A stretch of 64,000 nt of DNA from a virus: the IMG/VR virus record IMGVR_UViG_3300009506_000002, positions 62,001 to 126,000 of that record. The stretch is one strand, 5' to 3'. Below are positions 9,242 through 62,765 of the stretch, piece after piece. The stretch's first letter is position 1. Every line of letters begins with the position of its first letter. The position numbers and the translations under genes are program-made. The notes beneath the pieces were generated by a model. The model was given only the letters and a program-made list of their open reading frames with translations, ran no database searches and was not told the origin of the DNA.

Positions 9242-9249
9242 TATTTATT
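9242..9249 (-). promoter_or_regulatory. Possible late promoter box immediately upstream of gp25
   Basis: AATAAATA on the minus strand, with T4-like spacing predicting transcription start at about 9236, one base before the gp25 ATG. No ribosome site fits between, so if functional the mRNA would be practically leaderless. Confidence 0.4.
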
Positions 9250-10216
9250 ACGTCTGTTGCTGGTTAGGTGCGCTGACTGGAACACCTAGGTTACCAATGT
9301 GATCGTGACCGTTGTAGGTATCACGCATTTCTTGCATTGTTCCGTTCGCGTCGTTAACCTGATCAGCCGCCTGAACACTTGCGTCGGTTGAAATATTTTG
9401 GGTTACATGCAGTCTACCCTTGATTGTGTGCAGTGGAGTCTCCTCGGTCACGTTGCCAATGACCTTAAGGTTGCAGTTGCCTGAGATGGTGATATTGCAC
9501 TCACCCTTAATGTGGACATTCTTCTTGCCAGCCACAATCTCATAGCTGTCCTTGACGATCTTATGTACCTCAGTTCCATCCGGATGAACTTCACGGAAGG
9601 TACCTGCTCTATGGTAGTCATGAATACGCTCTGCACCCTCGGTGTCGTCAACTTCAAAGATGTGGCCGCTCTCGCTCTCATGAACGTGATTGAAAGGATA
9701 CTTCGCTGCATACGGAGTTTCTGGCTCGCTCCATTGGCCGCCAGTAGACGTAGGCACATTCTTGTCAGTGCCACTCTTCTTGCCTGGAACAATTGTGCCT
9801 TCAGTTACGCCACGCGCCAAACGGTTGGTGTCTGGCTCACCTTTGTAATCCTGCTTCGGATACTTTTTGTTTGGGTCACCAAAGCCCTCTTCTGTCTGCT
9901 CAGGAACTATTCCTGGAAGCGTGCCAAAGTACACGAGGTTTTGAAGCGCTGAACCGTCACGCGAATAGCCGACAACCCAAGTGCCCTCAACTGGCCCTAG
10001 TGGCGTTTCACCAATTCCGTGCATGTTAGCATTCGTGATAGGACAAACAGGGTGCGCCCAAGGCAGTGAAGCGACAGGGATACCCTCGCCAGTTTTATCA
10101 TCAGGCACGAGTTTTTCGGAGTGGAGACCCACAATGCGCACGCGCACGCGACCCAGCTCTAGCGGATCGTCACGGTCTTCGACAACTCCTTCCCATAGGT
10201 AAAGTCCTTGCATCAT
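9248..10216 (-). CDS. 5: Baseplate hub protein gp5-like, no lysozyme domain
   Basis: 322 residues. An N-terminal OB-fold-like domain (YLWEGVVEDRDDPLELGRVR, WVVGYSRDGSALQNLVYFG) is followed by a linker and a C-terminal needle-type beta-helix (GTEVHKIVKDSYEIVAGKKN, HIKGECNITISGNCNLKVIG). This is the gp5 spike at the tip of the tail tube that punctures the outer membrane. T4 gp5 (575 aa) carries a lysozyme between the two domains; none is visible here, the arrangement known from cyanophages. It lies between the gp27-like and gp25 genes. Two adjacent ATGs start the frame; either is plausible after AAGAAGG. Confidence 0.88.
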   Translation of the reverse strand: MMQGLYLWEGVVEDRDDPLELGRVRVRIVGLHSEKLVPDDKTGEGIPVASLPWAHPVCPITNANMHGIGETPLGPVEGTWVVGYSRDGSALQNLVYFGTLPGIVPEQTEEGFGDPNKKYPKQDYKGEPDTNRLARGVTEGTIVPGKKSGTDKNVPTSTGGQWSEPETPYAAKYPFNHVHESESGHIFEVDDTEGAERIHDYHRAGTFREVHPDGTEVHKIVKDSYEIVAGKKNVHIKGECNITISGNCNLKVIGNVTEETPLHTIKGRLHVTQNISTDASVQAADQVNDANGTMQEMRDTYNGHDHIGNLGVPVSAPNQQQT

Positions 10217-12826: not shown

Positions 12827-13276
12827 ATGGCTTATAAGGGTGTGTTTCGTCCATCTAATCCTGAGAAGTACCGTGGTGACATTACAAAGATCATCTACCG
12901 GAGCTCTTGGGAGCGTAAATTCATGGAGTTTTGTGACCATAACTCTAGCATTCTGCTATGGAATTCTGAAGGTGTGGTCATCCCATATATTTCTCCAGTG
13001 GACGGAGAGCGACACAGGTACTTTATTGACTTCTGGATTCGTATGCGTGACAAGCACGGCAACATCGTAGAGAAGTTGATTGAGATCAAGCCAAACGCGC
13101 AACGCCACCCACCAAAAGAACCCCAACGCAAGACCAAGAGATATTTTGGTGCTGTGAAAACATACGCGGTCAATCAGGCCAAGTGGAAAGCGGCTGAACT
13201 GATTGCGGAGCAGAACAACATGCAGTTCGTTGTTCTTGACGAATACGATTTGGGTATCAAGAAGAGGAAAAAGTAA
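12827..13276 (+). CDS. 4: Head completion protein gp4 (TnsA-like nuclease family)
   Basis: 149 residues, matching T4 gp4 (150). The family has a PD-(D/E)XK/TnsA-like fold, and in T4 the protein is needed to finish DNA-filled heads. Candidate active-site residues are present in order: E29 (SSWERKFMEF), D68 (YFIDFWIRM), E86 and K88 (KLIEIKPN). The C-terminus is basic (IKKRKK). It is the first gene of the plus-strand late block and adjoins the next gene with no gap. No ribosome site precedes the ATG. Confidence 0.9.
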   Translation: MAYKGVFRPSNPEKYRGDITKIIYRSSWERKFMEFCDHNSSILLWNSEGVVIPYISPVDGERHRYFIDFWIRMRDKHGNIVEKLIEIKPNAQRHPPKEPQRKTKRYFGAVKTYAVNQAKWKAAELIAEQNNMQFVVLDEYDLGIKKRKK

Positions 13277-13849
13277 TTGGCACGCTTTACAGTACCGCAG
13301 AGATTTCTTGATCGTCTGGGCATTGGCAAAAAGCTAAGCCCAAGCCAGCTCGCGCGCGATGCGATGCAGTGGTTCCAAGGAAAGACTGCCAGAAGCATTA
13401 TGAGTGACAAGGAGAAGACTGCCATCCCGAAGCTTGGCAAGATGTACCTATTCCTCTATGATGCAAAGCACAAAGATACACTTCCATATTGGGACAAGCA
13501 ACCACTAATCATCGTGATCAAGAAGCGCGGCAATTCAGTATGGGGCTTGAACTTGCACTATCTTCCTCCTACGCTGAGAATCAAGCTGCTGTCTCAGCTT
13601 ATGGAATACGCATCGAATGATCGCATGGATGAGACAACAAAGTTGCGCGTGACGTACAGCTTCCTGAAGAGTGCGTCAAAGCTAAAGGAATTCAAGCCAA
13701 CGATTCACCGATACCTGTACAACCACACGAAGTCGCAGTTCGCGCTTATTCCTGCCAATGAGTGGAAGTTCGTCACAATGATGCCAATTGCGAAGTGGCA
13801 AGGTGCCAGCTCTGGCACAGTTTACAACGATTCACGAGGTAAGATCTAA
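13277..13849 (+). CDS. Conserved T4-like assembly protein of unknown role
   Basis: 190 residues, starting at TTG 13277 immediately after the gp4 stop, with AGAGGAA as ribosome site. The conserved core (GKMYLFLYDAKHKDTLPYWD, PLIIVIKKRGNSVWGLNLHY LPP then LRIKLL) recurs in T4-like and cyanophage genomes beside tail/head completion genes. In T4 the gene next to 4 is 2 (DNA end protector), but I cannot see convincing gp2 similarity. It ends overlapping the next start as TAATG, so co-expression with the tube-like protein is likely. Confidence 0.7.
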   Translation: MARFTVPQRFLDRLGIGKKLSPSQLARDAMQWFQGKTARSIMSDKEKTAIPKLGKMYLFLYDAKHKDTLPYWDKQPLIIVIKKRGNSVWGLNLHYLPPTLRIKLLSQLMEYASNDRMDETTKLRVTYSFLKSASKLKEFKPTIHRYLYNHTKSQFALIPANEWKFVTMMPIAKWQGASSGTVYNDSRGKI

Positions 13850-14505
13850 TGTCAAAACTTGGAGATACCAGAAAGCCAACACCTGGAATTGGAACCATTC
13901 TTGACCCCATTCACAACCTCAAGACGATGGCACTTGACTTCGCGCGTCCGAACAAGTACATTGTGCAGCTATTCCCAAACCGACTGAAGATCCCTTTCCG
14001 TTCGGTGCTTGGCATCCCGTTTGATGAGGCGCTCTCGCTGGCGTGCAGCAACGCCGTGCTTCCAGGCAAAAATTACACCACATTCGATGATCGTCGAGGC
14101 TTGCCAAACTCGGCGAAGAAAGCTGGCGACTTGGTCTACAATGATGTGCAGCTAACCTTCCAGGTCTCTTCATTGATGATCGAACACAACGTCATCCAGG
14201 AATGGATGAACTTCATCTATGATGAGAATGGCGAGTTCTACAATTTTCACAAAGATTATAAGACGGATATACATATCATACAACTGAACCAGACACGCCA
14301 TCCGGTCAAGTATGTCAAGCTGATTGACGCTTTCCCGACTCAGATGGGCGACATTGCGCTCGGTTACGATATGAATGACCAGATTGAGACATTCAACGTC
14401 ACCTTCGCTTATCACCATTGGGAGTCAATCGATCTGACAAATGCGCAGGCCACTGTTCCTGACCTAGTCGAGCAGATGGTGAGTAAGATTCCTCAGCTAT
14501 TCTAG
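13849..14505 (+). CDS. Tail-tube-fold protein (gp19/gp48/gp54-like)
   Basis: 218 residues with the tail-tube signature of T4-like phages: FARPNKYIVQLFPNRLKIPF, LACSNAVLPGKNYTTFDDRR, VQLTFQVSSLMIEHNVIQEW and a C-terminal IETFNVTFAYHHWESIDL. Such proteins form the inner tube or its baseplate-proximal rings. It could be the tube initiator gp54, with the divergent gene at 11963 being gp48. Position just before the gp26/frameshift/tape-measure genes mirrors major tail protein, chaperone, tape measure in other tailed phages. Confidence 0.75.
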   Translation: MSKLGDTRKPTPGIGTILDPIHNLKTMALDFARPNKYIVQLFPNRLKIPFRSVLGIPFDEALSLACSNAVLPGKNYTTFDDRRGLPNSAKKAGDLVYNDVQLTFQVSSLMIEHNVIQEWMNFIYDENGEFYNFHKDYKTDIHIIQLNQTRHPVKYVKLIDAFPTQMGDIALGYDMNDQIETFNVTFAYHHWESIDLTNAQATVPDLVEQMVSKIPQLF

Positions 14506-14516
14506 GAGATTATTGA

Positions 14517-15242
14517 ATGACATCATTGCCGCAAATTAGCGCACCCGTAAGTAAGACAACCCTTCCATGCTCAGGCATTGAAGTTGAATTTCGTCCGTTC
14601 TTGGTAAAAGAGGAGAAGATCCTCATCATTGCTGCAGAAAGTGAAGATGAAAAAGCAATCGACGCCGCTGTCCTGCAAGTTGTGACCAACTGCACCTTTG
14701 GCAAGATTGACTTTGAGAAGGTGCCAGCCGTTGATCTTCAGTGGATGATCCTGCAACTGCGCAAACATGCAAAGGGCAACAACATCGAGCTGTTCTTCAA
14801 GTGTGAAGCCACGGACGAAGAAGGCAAGAAGTGCGGTCATACCAACGAGATCGTGAAGAAGATTGACGATGTGAAATACTACGGTCCGACCAGCGGCTCA
14901 AAGCGCATTGAGTTGACCGATCAGATCGGCATCAAGATGAAAGTGCCAACTATGAAGGACGCCAAGGACATTCGCATGAATGACTCGGTCGAAGGCATGT
15001 TTGACACAATCATCTCCGCTATGGAAATGATCTATAACGGAGACGAAGTATGGCAGATCGAGAACGTACCACGCAAAGAGCTTGAGGCGTTCATTGAAGA
15101 GCTGCCACCAACCCAGTTTAACCGTGTGCAAGCATTTATCGACAACCTACCTCGCCTCGTGCTTGAAGTAGATTTCGAGTGCAAGAAGTGCAAGCATACA
15201 GAAAAAATTGAATTGACAGGACTAGACTCTTTTTTCGTGTAA
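14517..15242 (+). CDS. 26: gp26-like baseplate hub/tail assembly protein (frame 0 of frameshift pair)
   Basis: 241 residues, T4_baseplate (gp26) family, 208 aa in T4. Conserved elements are FRPFLVKEEKILIIAAESED, DLQWMILQLRKHAKGNNIEL, a Cys-rich middle (C-x9-C), YNGDEVWQIENVPRKELEAF and a C-terminal CKKCKHTEKIELTGLDSFF. Genetically gp26 acts in hub assembly. The last codons run over an in-phase T TTT TTC heptamer (15230-15236) followed by the stop. A -1 slip would enter the gp51-like frame and yield a 301-residue fusion. The gene lies between a tube-fold protein and the tape measure gene, the usual site of frameshifting tail assembly chaperones. Confidence 0.85.
   Translation: MTSLPQISAPVSKTTLPCSGIEVEFRPFLVKEEKILIIAAESEDEKAIDAAVLQVVTNCTFGKIDFEKVPAVDLQWMILQLRKHAKGNNIELFFKCEATDEEGKKCGHTNEIVKKIDDVKYYGPTSGSKRIELTDQIGIKMKVPTMKDAKDIRMNDSVEGMFDTIISAMEMIYNGDEVWQIENVPRKELEAFIEELPPTQFNRVQAFIDNLPRLVLEVDFECKKCKHTEKIELTGLDSFFV
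15230..15236 (+). other. Candidate -1 ribosomal frameshift site T TTT TTC
   Basis: The heptamer fits X XXY YYZ in the gp26 reading frame (codons TTT TTC, preceded by T of TCT). After a -1 slip the next codon is CGT at 15236, exactly the frame of the downstream gp51-like segment. AGGA lies about 9 nt upstream (15218-15221), a spacing known to stimulate bacterial -1 frameshifting. The frame-0 stop TAA follows two codons later. Confidence 0.7.
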
Positions 15243-15421
15243 TCGTGATTGACGACACCTTGCAGTCGTTCTATAAGCTGAATTTTGAACTAAGACACGA
15301 ACATGGTTACTCACTGACGGAGATTGAAAACATGCTCCCGTGGGAACGTGAAGTCTTTACCTTCATGATTATTAAACGACTCCAAGAGAAGAAAGAGGCA
15401 CTACAAAATGCCAACAGATAA
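15236..15421 (+). CDS. 51: gp51-like hub assembly segment, -1 frame extension of gp26
   Basis: 61 codons read in the -1 frame after the slip site; alternatively an independent 58-residue product from GTG 15245, which has no convincing ribosome site. The segment (YKLNFELRHEHGYSLTEIEN, MLPWEREVFTFMIIKRL) carries the PWERE signature of the small gp51-like hub assembly catalysts of T4-like phages. Upstream in this frame there is no ATG before a TGA at 15209, which favours entry by frameshifting. The end overlaps the tape measure start by 14 nt. Confidence 0.7.
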   Translation, partial: RVIVIDDTLQSFYKLNFELRHEHGYSLTEIENMLPWEREVFTFMIIKRLQEKKEALQNANR

Positions 15422-16877
15422 CACAGTATCGTTCGCAAAAGGCGTCACCGAGCAGCTAAAGCAAAGCAAGTCTCTGGGTGAAATTTCTGACCATTCTCAG
15501 AACATGCTGAAAGAGTTGAAGTCAACGCAGAAGTCATTTGAGATGCTGCAAATTGAACTTGCTCCACAGCGTGAGATTCTCGATGCGGCTGTCAAGGACA
15601 ATTCGTACCTAAAGGATGTGGTTGATCAGCTCGATGGTCTGGTAAAGCTCGATGGTGCAGCGCGCAAGGATCAGAAGATTGGTCTGGCTCGCTTGGCACA
15701 AATCCGCAAGGATCTCGATGGCAATAAGGAAATCAGTGATGAATCACGTGCCATCCTTGACCGCTACATGCAAAGAATCGACGAGGGTTTGACGAAGCAG
15801 TCGAACATTCTGAACTCAATCAAGAAAGCTGCCTATGAGAATATTGACAAGATCACAGGCGGCATTGCCTATGCGCTTGGCGAATCACCGCTTGGAATGA
15901 TGCTGTCTGGCTTCCTGTCAACGAAGATCAAGGAGATCTTCGAGCGCAGACGCGAAGCCAAGAATCAAAAAGCCAACCTTGCCAAGCTGAAGGCGATTGA
16001 AGCTGCAACAAAGGGTGTTGAGAAAGCAGTCAAAGGAAGCAAGCCAACGCGCCTAGATGCTGCACAGGCAGCACCTACACGAACAACTGCTCGTGGAGCA
16101 CCAGTTCGTAGAAAAGCAGGCATTGGCGCTCGTATGACAATGATCATGGTCGCTGGTATGATCAGATTGTTCTCAATGGCAACGAGTGCAGTCACCGGAC
16201 TGGTTAGTGCGGTGTCACTGATTTCGGGCGGTATTCAACTGGCTTGGACTGCCCTGTCTGGCTTTGCATCATTCATCTGGGATATGATCAAGAATCTCGG
16301 TAGCGCACTTGCGCGTCTGATTCCGGGCTTCAGTGGTGACAAGACAACCGCAGGTGGCAAAGCAAGCAAGACAACGAAGCCGGGTGGTAAAGCCACACAG
16401 ATGTCTAAGACTGGCTCTGTGGTGAAGAAGGGTGCTGGCAAAGCGCTCTCAATTGCAGGTCGAGGTGCAGCGCTACTAGGTCCTGCTGCTGCCGTTGCTG
16501 GCGCTGGCTATGCTGGTTGGGAAATCGGATCTTGGCTGAATGATGAACTCAATAGCCTTGTGAAGAACGCAACTGGCGGCAAGTCACAGTCGCTCGGTGA
16601 GTGGATTTACGATAAGACTCATGATGACAAGACACAGAATTTGGTCGCGGCCACTTCTGAAAATGTCAAGGCAGTGAACGGTGCCAAGTCTGGTGCTCTG
16701 GTTCAATCACAGCGCGAACTTGAAGCAATGAGACATCCTACTGCAGAAGGCGCAGGTGGCTCAAGCTCTACTGTGGTTCAAACATCTCAGACAACGAATC
16801 AGGTCATTGCACCACGCATCGATCCTTCGAACCACGACCCATCATTCCTCAAGGCCTCACTCGCAGGCGCAACATAA
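15408..16877 (+). CDS. Probable tape measure protein (gp29 position)
   Basis: 489 residues. The N-terminal 140 residues are charged and helical (coiled coil). A hydrophobic stretch follows around residues 245-305 (MTMIMVAGMIRLFSM, LVSAVSLISGGIQLAWTALS), then a Gly/Lys/Thr-rich linker, and a second hydrophobic Ala/Gly helix near 350-375. This architecture and the place right after the frameshifting chaperone pair are those of tape measures, whose length sets tail length. T4 gp29 has 590 aa, so a somewhat shorter tail than T4 is an inference. Similarity to gp29 itself is not evident by eye. Confidence 0.7.
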   Translation: MPTDNTVSFAKGVTEQLKQSKSLGEISDHSQNMLKELKSTQKSFEMLQIELAPQREILDAAVKDNSYLKDVVDQLDGLVKLDGAARKDQKIGLARLAQIRKDLDGNKEISDESRAILDRYMQRIDEGLTKQSNILNSIKKAAYENIDKITGGIAYALGESPLGMMLSGFLSTKIKEIFERRREAKNQKANLAKLKAIEAATKGVEKAVKGSKPTRLDAAQAAPTRTTARGAPVRRKAGIGARMTMIMVAGMIRLFSMATSAVTGLVSAVSLISGGIQLAWTALSGFASFIWDMIKNLGSALARLIPGFSGDKTTAGGKASKTTKPGGKATQMSKTGSVVKKGAGKALSIAGRGAALLGPAAAVAGAGYAGWEIGSWLNDELNSLVKNATGGKSQSLGEWIYDKTHDDKTQNLVAATSENVKAVNGAKSGALVQSQRELEAMRHPTAEGAGGSSSTVVQTSQTTNQVIAPRIDPSNHDPSFLKASLAGAT

Positions 16878-61499: not shown

Positions 61500-62765
61500 T
61501 TAGAGTCTCCAGAGCATGCCTGAGATTTGGTTGAGAGGAGCGAACAGGCCAGTGAGTTTCAGCAACTCGCCCTTATAGAAGAACGTGATGCCTTCGGTCG
61601 GAACCAGCTTTTCAATGCCGCCAATCTTGTTGATGCGGTCGAGCTCCAGACGCAGCTTGGCAATGACATCTGGGTCAGTTGACTTCTCAAGCGTCTTGAC
61701 TGTAGAGTGGAACTTCTGTCGCATGTTGTCAAGGGTGTGATCAGGGTTGACTGCAATCAAGGTATCGATTCCCTGTAGCACTTCAACACCTACGCGCAGG
61801 AACAGAACCTCGAATGGCAAGTGCATTCGCTTGCTCTCGTTCTTGGCTTCTCTCTTGTCGAAGTTCTTGACCTTCTGCGCCAGTGCTTTGTCGAGACCCT
61901 TGGCGATAGTATTGATATTTGGGGTTTTGATGCCATGCGCCCAACGATTGACCAGTGCCTTCTTGGTTGCTTCATCAACTGCTGCAAAGTTCTTCGCCAC
62001 GTAAGATGTCCAGTATGAGGTTGTGTAGTCCTTGATCGTGTTGTTCCAGCTTAGACGCTGGCCCTTCATGATCTTGCCAAGCTCTGCAATGTGCTTCGCG
62101 CGTAGGGTATCGTAGTTTGGCATCTTCTGCAGACGCAGCTTATCGATCTCCTTGATTGTGAAGGTTGACTGTTTGTGAGCCTGCACTTTTTGGAGCATTT
62201 TTGCCAGCGCTGCACCATCGGCCTTGTTTAGCTGGCTGATAGGCTCGCCCGCTTCATTGTACTCGAGTGTACCGTGGAAGCGCAGTTCATCGACGCCGTA
62301 GTGAATGACGTTTGGGTTAGATGAGTACAACACCTCAACAGACATGAAGCGCTTGCCGTTCATGAAAATCTTGTCGCGTTGATCAGCAGACAGTTCCTTG
62401 ACCGCAGTCTCTAGGTCGCGTGCAGCTTCAACAAAGGCTGTTTCGATTGTGCCACGTCCTGCGAACATTGCCTTGACACCATCAACACCCATTGCATTTT
62501 CGCCTGCGTTCTTGAGGTGACTCTTGTTGCGTGCAGCAATCAGTCGTCCGCCACGCCATGAAACCAGAAGGTTCTGGCCGTCAGTCTTTTCGCGTGACCA
62601 TTCAAGTTCGCCCGAGAGTGACTTGTCGATGATGTCGCGTAGATCTTTGAAAGTGAAGGTCTCGATGTCAAATGGATGAGCGAGGTGACCGAAGCCACCA
62701 CCCTCATCTAGACGTTCTGATTCCTTGAGATAGGTCGAAAATCGCTTAATTGCAGGAGATGCCAT
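61500..62765 (-). CDS. Ligase-superfamily nucleotidyltransferase with N-terminal capsid tag
   Basis: 421 residues from ATG 62765 (GAGGAAT upstream). MASPAIKRFSTYLKESERLD-EGGG is a tag-like N-terminus with predicted cut after E21. The body carries K60-T-D-G (REKTDGQNLLVSWRGGRLIA, motif I), MSVEVLYSSNPNVIHYG (motif III-like), TEGITFFYKGELLKLTGLFA (motifs IV and V, with Lys). This is the core of ATP/NAD ligases and capping enzymes; similar proteins with EGIxFxYxGxxxKLTGxFAPxNQ occur in other large phages. Activity untested; a virion-delivered RNA or DNA ligase is the attractive reading. Confidence 0.72.
   Translation of the reverse strand: MASPAIKRFSTYLKESERLDEGGGFGHLAHPFDIETFTFKDLRDIIDKSLSGELEWSREKTDGQNLLVSWRGGRLIAARNKSHLKNAGENAMGVDGVKAMFAGRGTIETAFVEAARDLETAVKELSADQRDKIFMNGKRFMSVEVLYSSNPNVIHYGVDELRFHGTLEYNEAGEPISQLNKADGAALAKMLQKVQAHKQSTFTIKEIDKLRLQKMPNYDTLRAKHIAELGKIMKGQRLSWNNTIKDYTTSYWTSYVAKNFAAVDEATKKALVNRWAHGIKTPNINTIAKGLDKALAQKVKNFDKREAKNESKRMHLPFEVLFLRVGVEVLQGIDTLIAVNPDHTLDNMRQKFHSTVKTLEKSTDPDVIAKLRLELDRINKIGGIEKLVPTEGITFFYKGELLKLTGLFAPLNQISGMLWRL

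Follow-up and report, generated by a model that had tools for sequence, protein, structure and literature searches.

A probable T4-like tail assembly chaperone pair, gp26 and gp26-51, very probably produced by −1 programmed frameshifting in an uncultured virus

Introduction

Long-tailed phages make a short and a long tail assembly chaperone by G-T frameshifting, a feature that a 2016 review called conserved "except T4" (PMC5009743). In an uncultured environmental T4-like virus, known from an IMG/VR record of 142,377 bases (IMGVR_UViG_3300009506_000002), a gene of the gp26 family ends over a run of T residues, precisely where a gp51-like frame opens in the −1 register. Are these two genes, or one gene with two products? 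A first-pass annotation, made from the letters of a 64,000-nucleotide stretch of that record (positions 62,001 to 126,000, here called the window), had proposed a programmed −1 frameshift and a chaperone pair. We have followed up this proposal by comparing the locus with its relatives in IMG/VR, with annotated phages and with genes 26 and 51 of T4.

Organization of the locus

The relevant features of the window are as follows.

12827-13276, plus strand: head closure protein gp4, in the gene run upstream of gp26
13277-13849, plus strand: DNA end protector gp2, in the same gene run
13849-14505, plus strand: tail-tube-fold protein, probably gp54 / baseplate tail tube initiator (phrog_45, tail tube, E 2.7e-36)
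14517-15242, plus strand: gp26-family open reading frame, putative TAC-N, 241 aa, stop TAA at 15240-15242 (PF12322, phrog_150)
15218-15221, plus strand: AGGA, candidate Shine-Dalgarno (SD)-like stimulator 8 nt 5' of the heptamer, weak by itself in the window
15230-15236, plus strand: candidate slippery heptamer T TTT TTC in −1 phase (T TTT TTN in 80 of 80 loci)
15236-15421, plus strand: −1 frame extension (TAC-C, gp51-like), 61 codons (15236-15418) and stop TAA at 15419-15421 (phrog_634, pN/pS)
15245-15247, plus strand: GTG, the sole codon near the front of the −1 frame at which translation could begin independently, with no SD at the usual spacing
15408-16877, plus strand: downstream open reading frame, 489 aa, probable tape measure protein by position

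The records of Mosig, ValKK3, S13, OLIVR5 and AF3 name the gene at the place of the tail-tube-fold protein a tube initiator. Elsewhere in the window, a gp5-like hub protein (9248-10216, minus strand) is just 322 aa long and corresponds to parts of far longer hub-lysozyme profiles; it may be without a tail lysozyme domain.

The gp26 open reading frame matches PF12322 over its full length (Pfam, E 5.6e-51, profile positions 5-218 of 219), and a PHROG profile search places it at positions 5-232 of 282 in phrog_150. We folded the gp26 part and the C-terminal part separately. The AlphaFold2 model of gp26 is confident (pLDDT 91.5), and its top matches among predicted viral folds are gp26 or baseplate hub assembly chaperone proteins. 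Among the solved structures, the match listed with the highest Foldseek probability was the HK97 tail assembly chaperone (2ob9), which is not significant (E 1.7, probability 0.23, TM 0.45 by target); at the level of the predicted model, this is a mere hint of a likeness to the HK97 fold. The C-terminal piece is predicted to form three helices (pLDDT 73.5), and a fold search with it gave no significant match. A sequence search of solved structures found no match for either part.

The first-pass annotation placed the end of the gp26 frame (14517-15242) over T TTT TTC (15230-15236) in the right phase, and these coordinates are correct. The last codons are GAC TCT TTT TTC GTG TAA, so that the heptamer stands in X XXY YYZ phase with the frame-0 stop two codons later. 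It also held that a −1 slip would lead without interruption into a gp51-like frame. This, too, is what we find: no stop interrupts the −1 frame between a point 28 nt 5' of the frame-0 stop and the TAA at 15419-15421, and the part of this frame that begins at the GTG matches the gp51 family phrog_634 (E 9.5e-20, positions 60-115 of 121). The same part matches the C-terminus of the gp26 family phrog_150 (238-280 of 282). As gp26 occupies positions 5-232, a single phrog_150 profile spans both pieces. The product of the shifted frame would read RVIVIDDTLQSFYKLNFELRHEHGYSLTEIENMLPWEREVFTFMIIKRLQEKKEALQNANR.

The window has 184 open reading frames of at least 80 aa, with 28 in-frame X XXY YYZ heptamers among them. 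The gp26 gene is the sole one of the 184 with a −1 frame that runs at least 30 codons beyond the stop.

Conservation of the candidate slippery site

Searching IMG/VR with gp26, we obtained 80 relatives of 31-40% identity; 79 of them continue beyond the gp26 stop and, with the window added, make up 80 readable loci. The first-pass annotation had proposed an alignment of the junction in relatives as a check. All 80 loci have T TTT TTN and an open −1 frame at the homologous place. The heptamer lies zero to four codons 5' of the frame-0 stop, mostly two, and its last position is C in 56 loci, T in 22 and A in 2. Where the contig is long enough, the −1 frame of the relatives has about 55-69 codons. 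The two-frame arrangement is not due to chance.

We considered a conserved Phe-Phe pair as the only cause of the heptamer. We reject this, since the heptamer includes the wobble base of the preceding codon, which is always T although the codon itself varies (AGT, TCT, AAT, GAT, GCT, CAT or GGT), and since it is intact in the two loci in which the second codon is TTA (Leu). The preceding codon ends in T in 80 of 80 loci, never in C, while its amino acid changes. Under the genes' own codon use, the log10 P is about −39 for the preceding codon to end in T throughout, and about −14 for the first Phe codon to be TTT in all loci; both figures overstate the strength of the evidence, because they ignore the relatedness of the loci. 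The remaining 18,338 codons of these genes contain T TTT TTN 21 times. The site is thus conserved beyond what the protein requires.

Selection on the −1 frame

We tested for selection in 58 non-redundant loci. In codons 3-17 of the −1 frame, past the frame-0 stop, pN/pS is 0.40, whereas the other two frames of the same stretch give 0.95 and 1.38; in codons 20-40 of the −1 frame it is 0.25. Entropies over the three codon positions of the −1 frame are 1.05, 0.80 and 1.49, third positions being the most variable, and Leu9, Asn11, Asn16 and Phe17 are nearly invariant. Just past the stop, purifying selection acts on the −1 frame at the level of the protein.

An SD-like element upstream of the heptamer

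The AGGA that the first-pass annotation saw about 9 nt upstream of the heptamer is present at 15218-15221, with a spacing of 8 nt. In the window, the element is a weak member of its class, as 12% of synonymous shuffles pair equally well. In the relatives as a set, the energy of anti-SD pairing, followed along the end of the gene, falls to a sharp minimum between −18 and −12 relative to the heptamer, with a mean of −6.5 kcal/mol at −15 versus roughly 0 elsewhere, and the peak is stronger than in synonymous shuffles (Wilcoxon P 3e-5). Codon choice is in line with this: where codon −4 encodes Glu, it is GAG in 22 of 38 loci, versus 274 of 1,316 Glu codons elsewhere (Fisher P 1e-6). The peak lies 8-15 nt 5' of the heptamer and overlaps the spacing of published SD-like −1 stimulators, which are found 9-14 nt upstream of the slip site (PMC5009743).

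A downstream stem-loop, a stimulator that not all −1 sites have, was considered too; folding of 50 and 80 nt gave no convincing signal for it: mean z was −0.3 and −1.1, respectively, against mononucleotide shuffles, and was not specific for the site.

Comparison with T4 genes 26 and 51

In T4, genes 26 and 51 are separate, the former on the minus strand and the latter on the plus strand. We used hhalign to align their products with a profile built from the fusions. T4 gp26 matches the short form (E 4e-17), its end falling at the shared Phe-Phe. In T4 gp51 (249 aa), the aligned part comprises residues 13-244, crosses the junction and reaches into the C-terminal domain (E 2e-9). Coverage of phrog_150 agrees, with 13-280 for T4 gp51 and 14-235 for T4 gp26. 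T4 gp26 is therefore collinear with TAC-N and T4 gp51 with the whole of TAC-NC, like the two forms of the present virus, which indicates that T4 keeps the two products on two genes. The difference is that the T4 genes lie on opposite strands and that gene 26, ending in GAG TTC TTT GAG TTA CTA TAA, is without a slippery run. It has TTC TTT where the relatives have TTT TTC, so the run is lost and Phe-Phe is kept. The two-gene reading agrees with what PMC10885494 says in its summary of Vladimirov et al. (2022).

Annotated phages and deviant sites

T TTT TTN is also found in the cyanophages S-H68, P-SSM2, B23 and BUCT-ZZ01, in Pelagibacter phage Mosig, Methylophilales phage Melnitz-3 and Stenotrophomonas phage DLP6, in Vibrio phage ValKK3, Cronobacter phage S13 and Pseudomonas phage Milchi, and in Agrobacterium phage OLIVR5 and Rhizobium phage AF3. 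The Ackermannviridae JA15, Bue1, PM10 and KNP4 deviate, as do further loci of this family. Their junction reads xTT TTC AT(T/C) T(A/G)A, with four T only and no tandem heptamer. The open stretch of the −1 frame ahead of the stop can be as short as 10 nt. Expression of the −1 frame would here call for single-tRNA slippage or coupling; JA15 has TAATG at the gp26 stop. Two Vibrio phages deviate as well, SUMAE with CTT TTC and GR28A with GCT TTC followed by TAATG.

We tentatively suggest, as an idea that is possible and somewhat short of probable, that the gp26 shift across the T4-like superfamily is driven by an internal SD-like element and not by downstream RNA structure, and that two groups have left T TTT TTN, the T4 group through separate short and fused genes and the Ackermannviridae through a reduced xTT TTC AT site without tandem slippage.

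The downstream open reading frame

The first-pass annotation placed the extension just before the tape measure gene. A 489-aa open reading frame does follow at once, its ATG at 15408 lying inside the −1 frame with an overlap of 14 nt, and it is the probable tape measure gene, an assignment made by position only. We tried to identify it by sequence, and comparisons with T4 gp29 and with the P-SSM2 open reading frame gave nothing: similarity to T4 gp29 was not detectable, and searches of Pfam and PHROG found no significant family match. The match to the ValKK3 open reading frame is weak and of low-complexity type; that frame, in the same place, has a weak match to a tape measure PHROG (E 1.6e-6). 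Open reading frames in this place in the relatives range from about 380 to more than 930 aa, some ended by the contig edge, and in a few relatives a small open reading frame comes first, ahead of the large one.

Discussion

We read the locus as a T4-like tail assembly chaperone pair, gp26 (TAC-N) and gp26-51 (TAC-NC), that would arise by −1 programmed frameshifting, and put the probability of this reading at about 0.9. It builds on the anatomy of the site, its conservation, the selection on the −1 frame, and the collinearity with T4 gp26 and gp51, all read directly in the sequences. A −1 frameshift at the locus is very likely; a chaperone role of gp26 and gp26-51 is likely, judging by homology, gene position and the comparison with T4.

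Together, these data suggest a model for the expression of the locus, in which we infer translation, the occurrence and frequency of slippage, the action of the stimulator and the stoichiometry of the products from sequence. Most ribosomes would stop at the end of gp26 and release the short form. A minority would slip by −1 on T TTT TTC, where two Phe-tRNAs could re-pair from TTT TTC to TTT TTT, probably aided by the SD-like sequence upstream. Slipped ribosomes would read on into the gp51-like frame and complete a 301-aa TAC-NC. By analogy with lambda gpG and gpGT, many short and few long copies may then coat the tape measure protein, with the C-terminal helices of the long form recruiting tail tube subunits.

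The most serious alternative is the one that annotations assume, namely two separate genes, with a gp51-like protein that starts by itself through translational coupling at GTG 15245. The GTG is two nt past the gp26 stop, and ribosomes might reinitiate there by coupling and make just the C-terminal part; TAATG or TGATG is found at the stop in ValKK3, JA15, GR28A and AF3, and an SD near a gene end can serve coupling, too (PMC5009743). The first-pass annotation had noted that the −1 frame has no good start of its own, and we agree: the GTG is the only candidate nearby, has no normally spaced SD before it and is not shared by the relatives. Moreover, ATG, GTG and TTG are all absent from the −1 frame ahead of its codon 18 in 23 of 58 loci, and ATG is absent in 35 of 58, yet the protein is conserved in this stretch. 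Read-through from gp26 is the simplest source, because a start inside the −1 frame would lose the conserved block. A separate start would also leave unexplained why the heptamer and the preceding wobble T are invariant beyond protein need, and why T4 gp51 is collinear with the fusion and not with the tail alone. We therefore consider separate initiation quite unlikely.

Alternatively, RNA polymerase could slip on the T run, gaining or losing one T, so that mixed mRNAs encode the fusion. Every close relative has six to eight T at the site. However, the bacterial polymerase is documented to slip where some nine A or T stand in a row (PMC5009743), and here the run often has six; the Ackermannviridae have only four at the junction; and the SD-like peak upstream suits a ribosomal event. 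This explanation seems very improbable. That sequencing error or gene decay has split a continuous gene, through an indel among the T residues, is hardly credible even though the homopolymer sits exactly at the frame change, as the conservation data refute it: all 80 independent loci retain the two-frame arrangement with T TTT TTN, which excludes a base-calling error, and purifying selection acts on the −1 frame.

Ribosomal frameshifting from gp26 into the gp51-like frame would have consequences for the databases. In all public records that we examined, from cyanophages to Vibrio phages, gp51 is a separate CDS or unannotated and never joined to gp26, a practice that agrees with the two-gene view. 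Because the frames are never joined in them, the putative long chaperone form would be missing from these proteomes, and gp51 would be entered as a truncated or mis-started gene. A simple rule, to look for T TTT TTN some two codons 5' of the gp26 stop, could serve to correct many phage records. The locus also supports the view that the T4 "baseplate hub" proteins gp26 and gp51 are tape measure chaperones.

The abstract of the 2022 study by Vladimirov and colleagues reportedly names genes 26 and 51 and describes frameshifting as conserved in several T4-like groups. The chaperone pair that the first-pass annotation proposed for a T4-like phage is well supported by the heptamer, the conservation of the −1 frame and the collinearity with T4, but the idea itself had already been published, in an article that identified the tail assembly chaperone genes of T4-like phages (Vladimirov, Gautam and Davidson, Virology 2022, 566:9-15, 10.1016/j.virol.2021.11.003). 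As reported in papers citing it, some T4-like groups have polyT slippery sites in their TAC-N genes (PMC12846349, PMC10885494), and other T4-like phages have a short gene and a separate, fused long gene. As far as these papers describe the published system, the proteins are the same and so is their place before the probable tape measure gene; the present virus differs in that it comes from an uncultured IMG/VR record and in that the SD-like peak was computed here. As the principle has been published, our locus confirms and extends a known pattern. Three points may go beyond the published work: the counts that show T TTT TTN to be universal among the uncultured relatives, the SD-like peak, and the reduced site of the Ackermannviridae.

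In lambda gpG/gpGT, one gene yields a short product and a −1-shifted long product just upstream of the tape measure gene (PMC5009743), as gp26 would do here ahead of the probable tape measure gene. The heptamers differ, and the likeness meant is one of arrangement. The first-pass annotation saw the lambda V-G/GT-H layout; the comparison is only approximate, because the tube-fold protein upstream is, by the annotation of its relatives, of the gp54 or tube-initiator kind. Lambda has its major tail protein there, whereas this contractile-tail T4-like virus has a gp54-type protein. The locus of Vandenendeviridae and Andersonviridae, as in phage Adele (PMC12846349), is alike in having a conserved −1 shift at the end of TAC-N, on a GTTTTT motif, and in that the downstream frame is routinely annotated as a separate hypothetical gene; it belongs to another phage lineage and uses another slippery motif.
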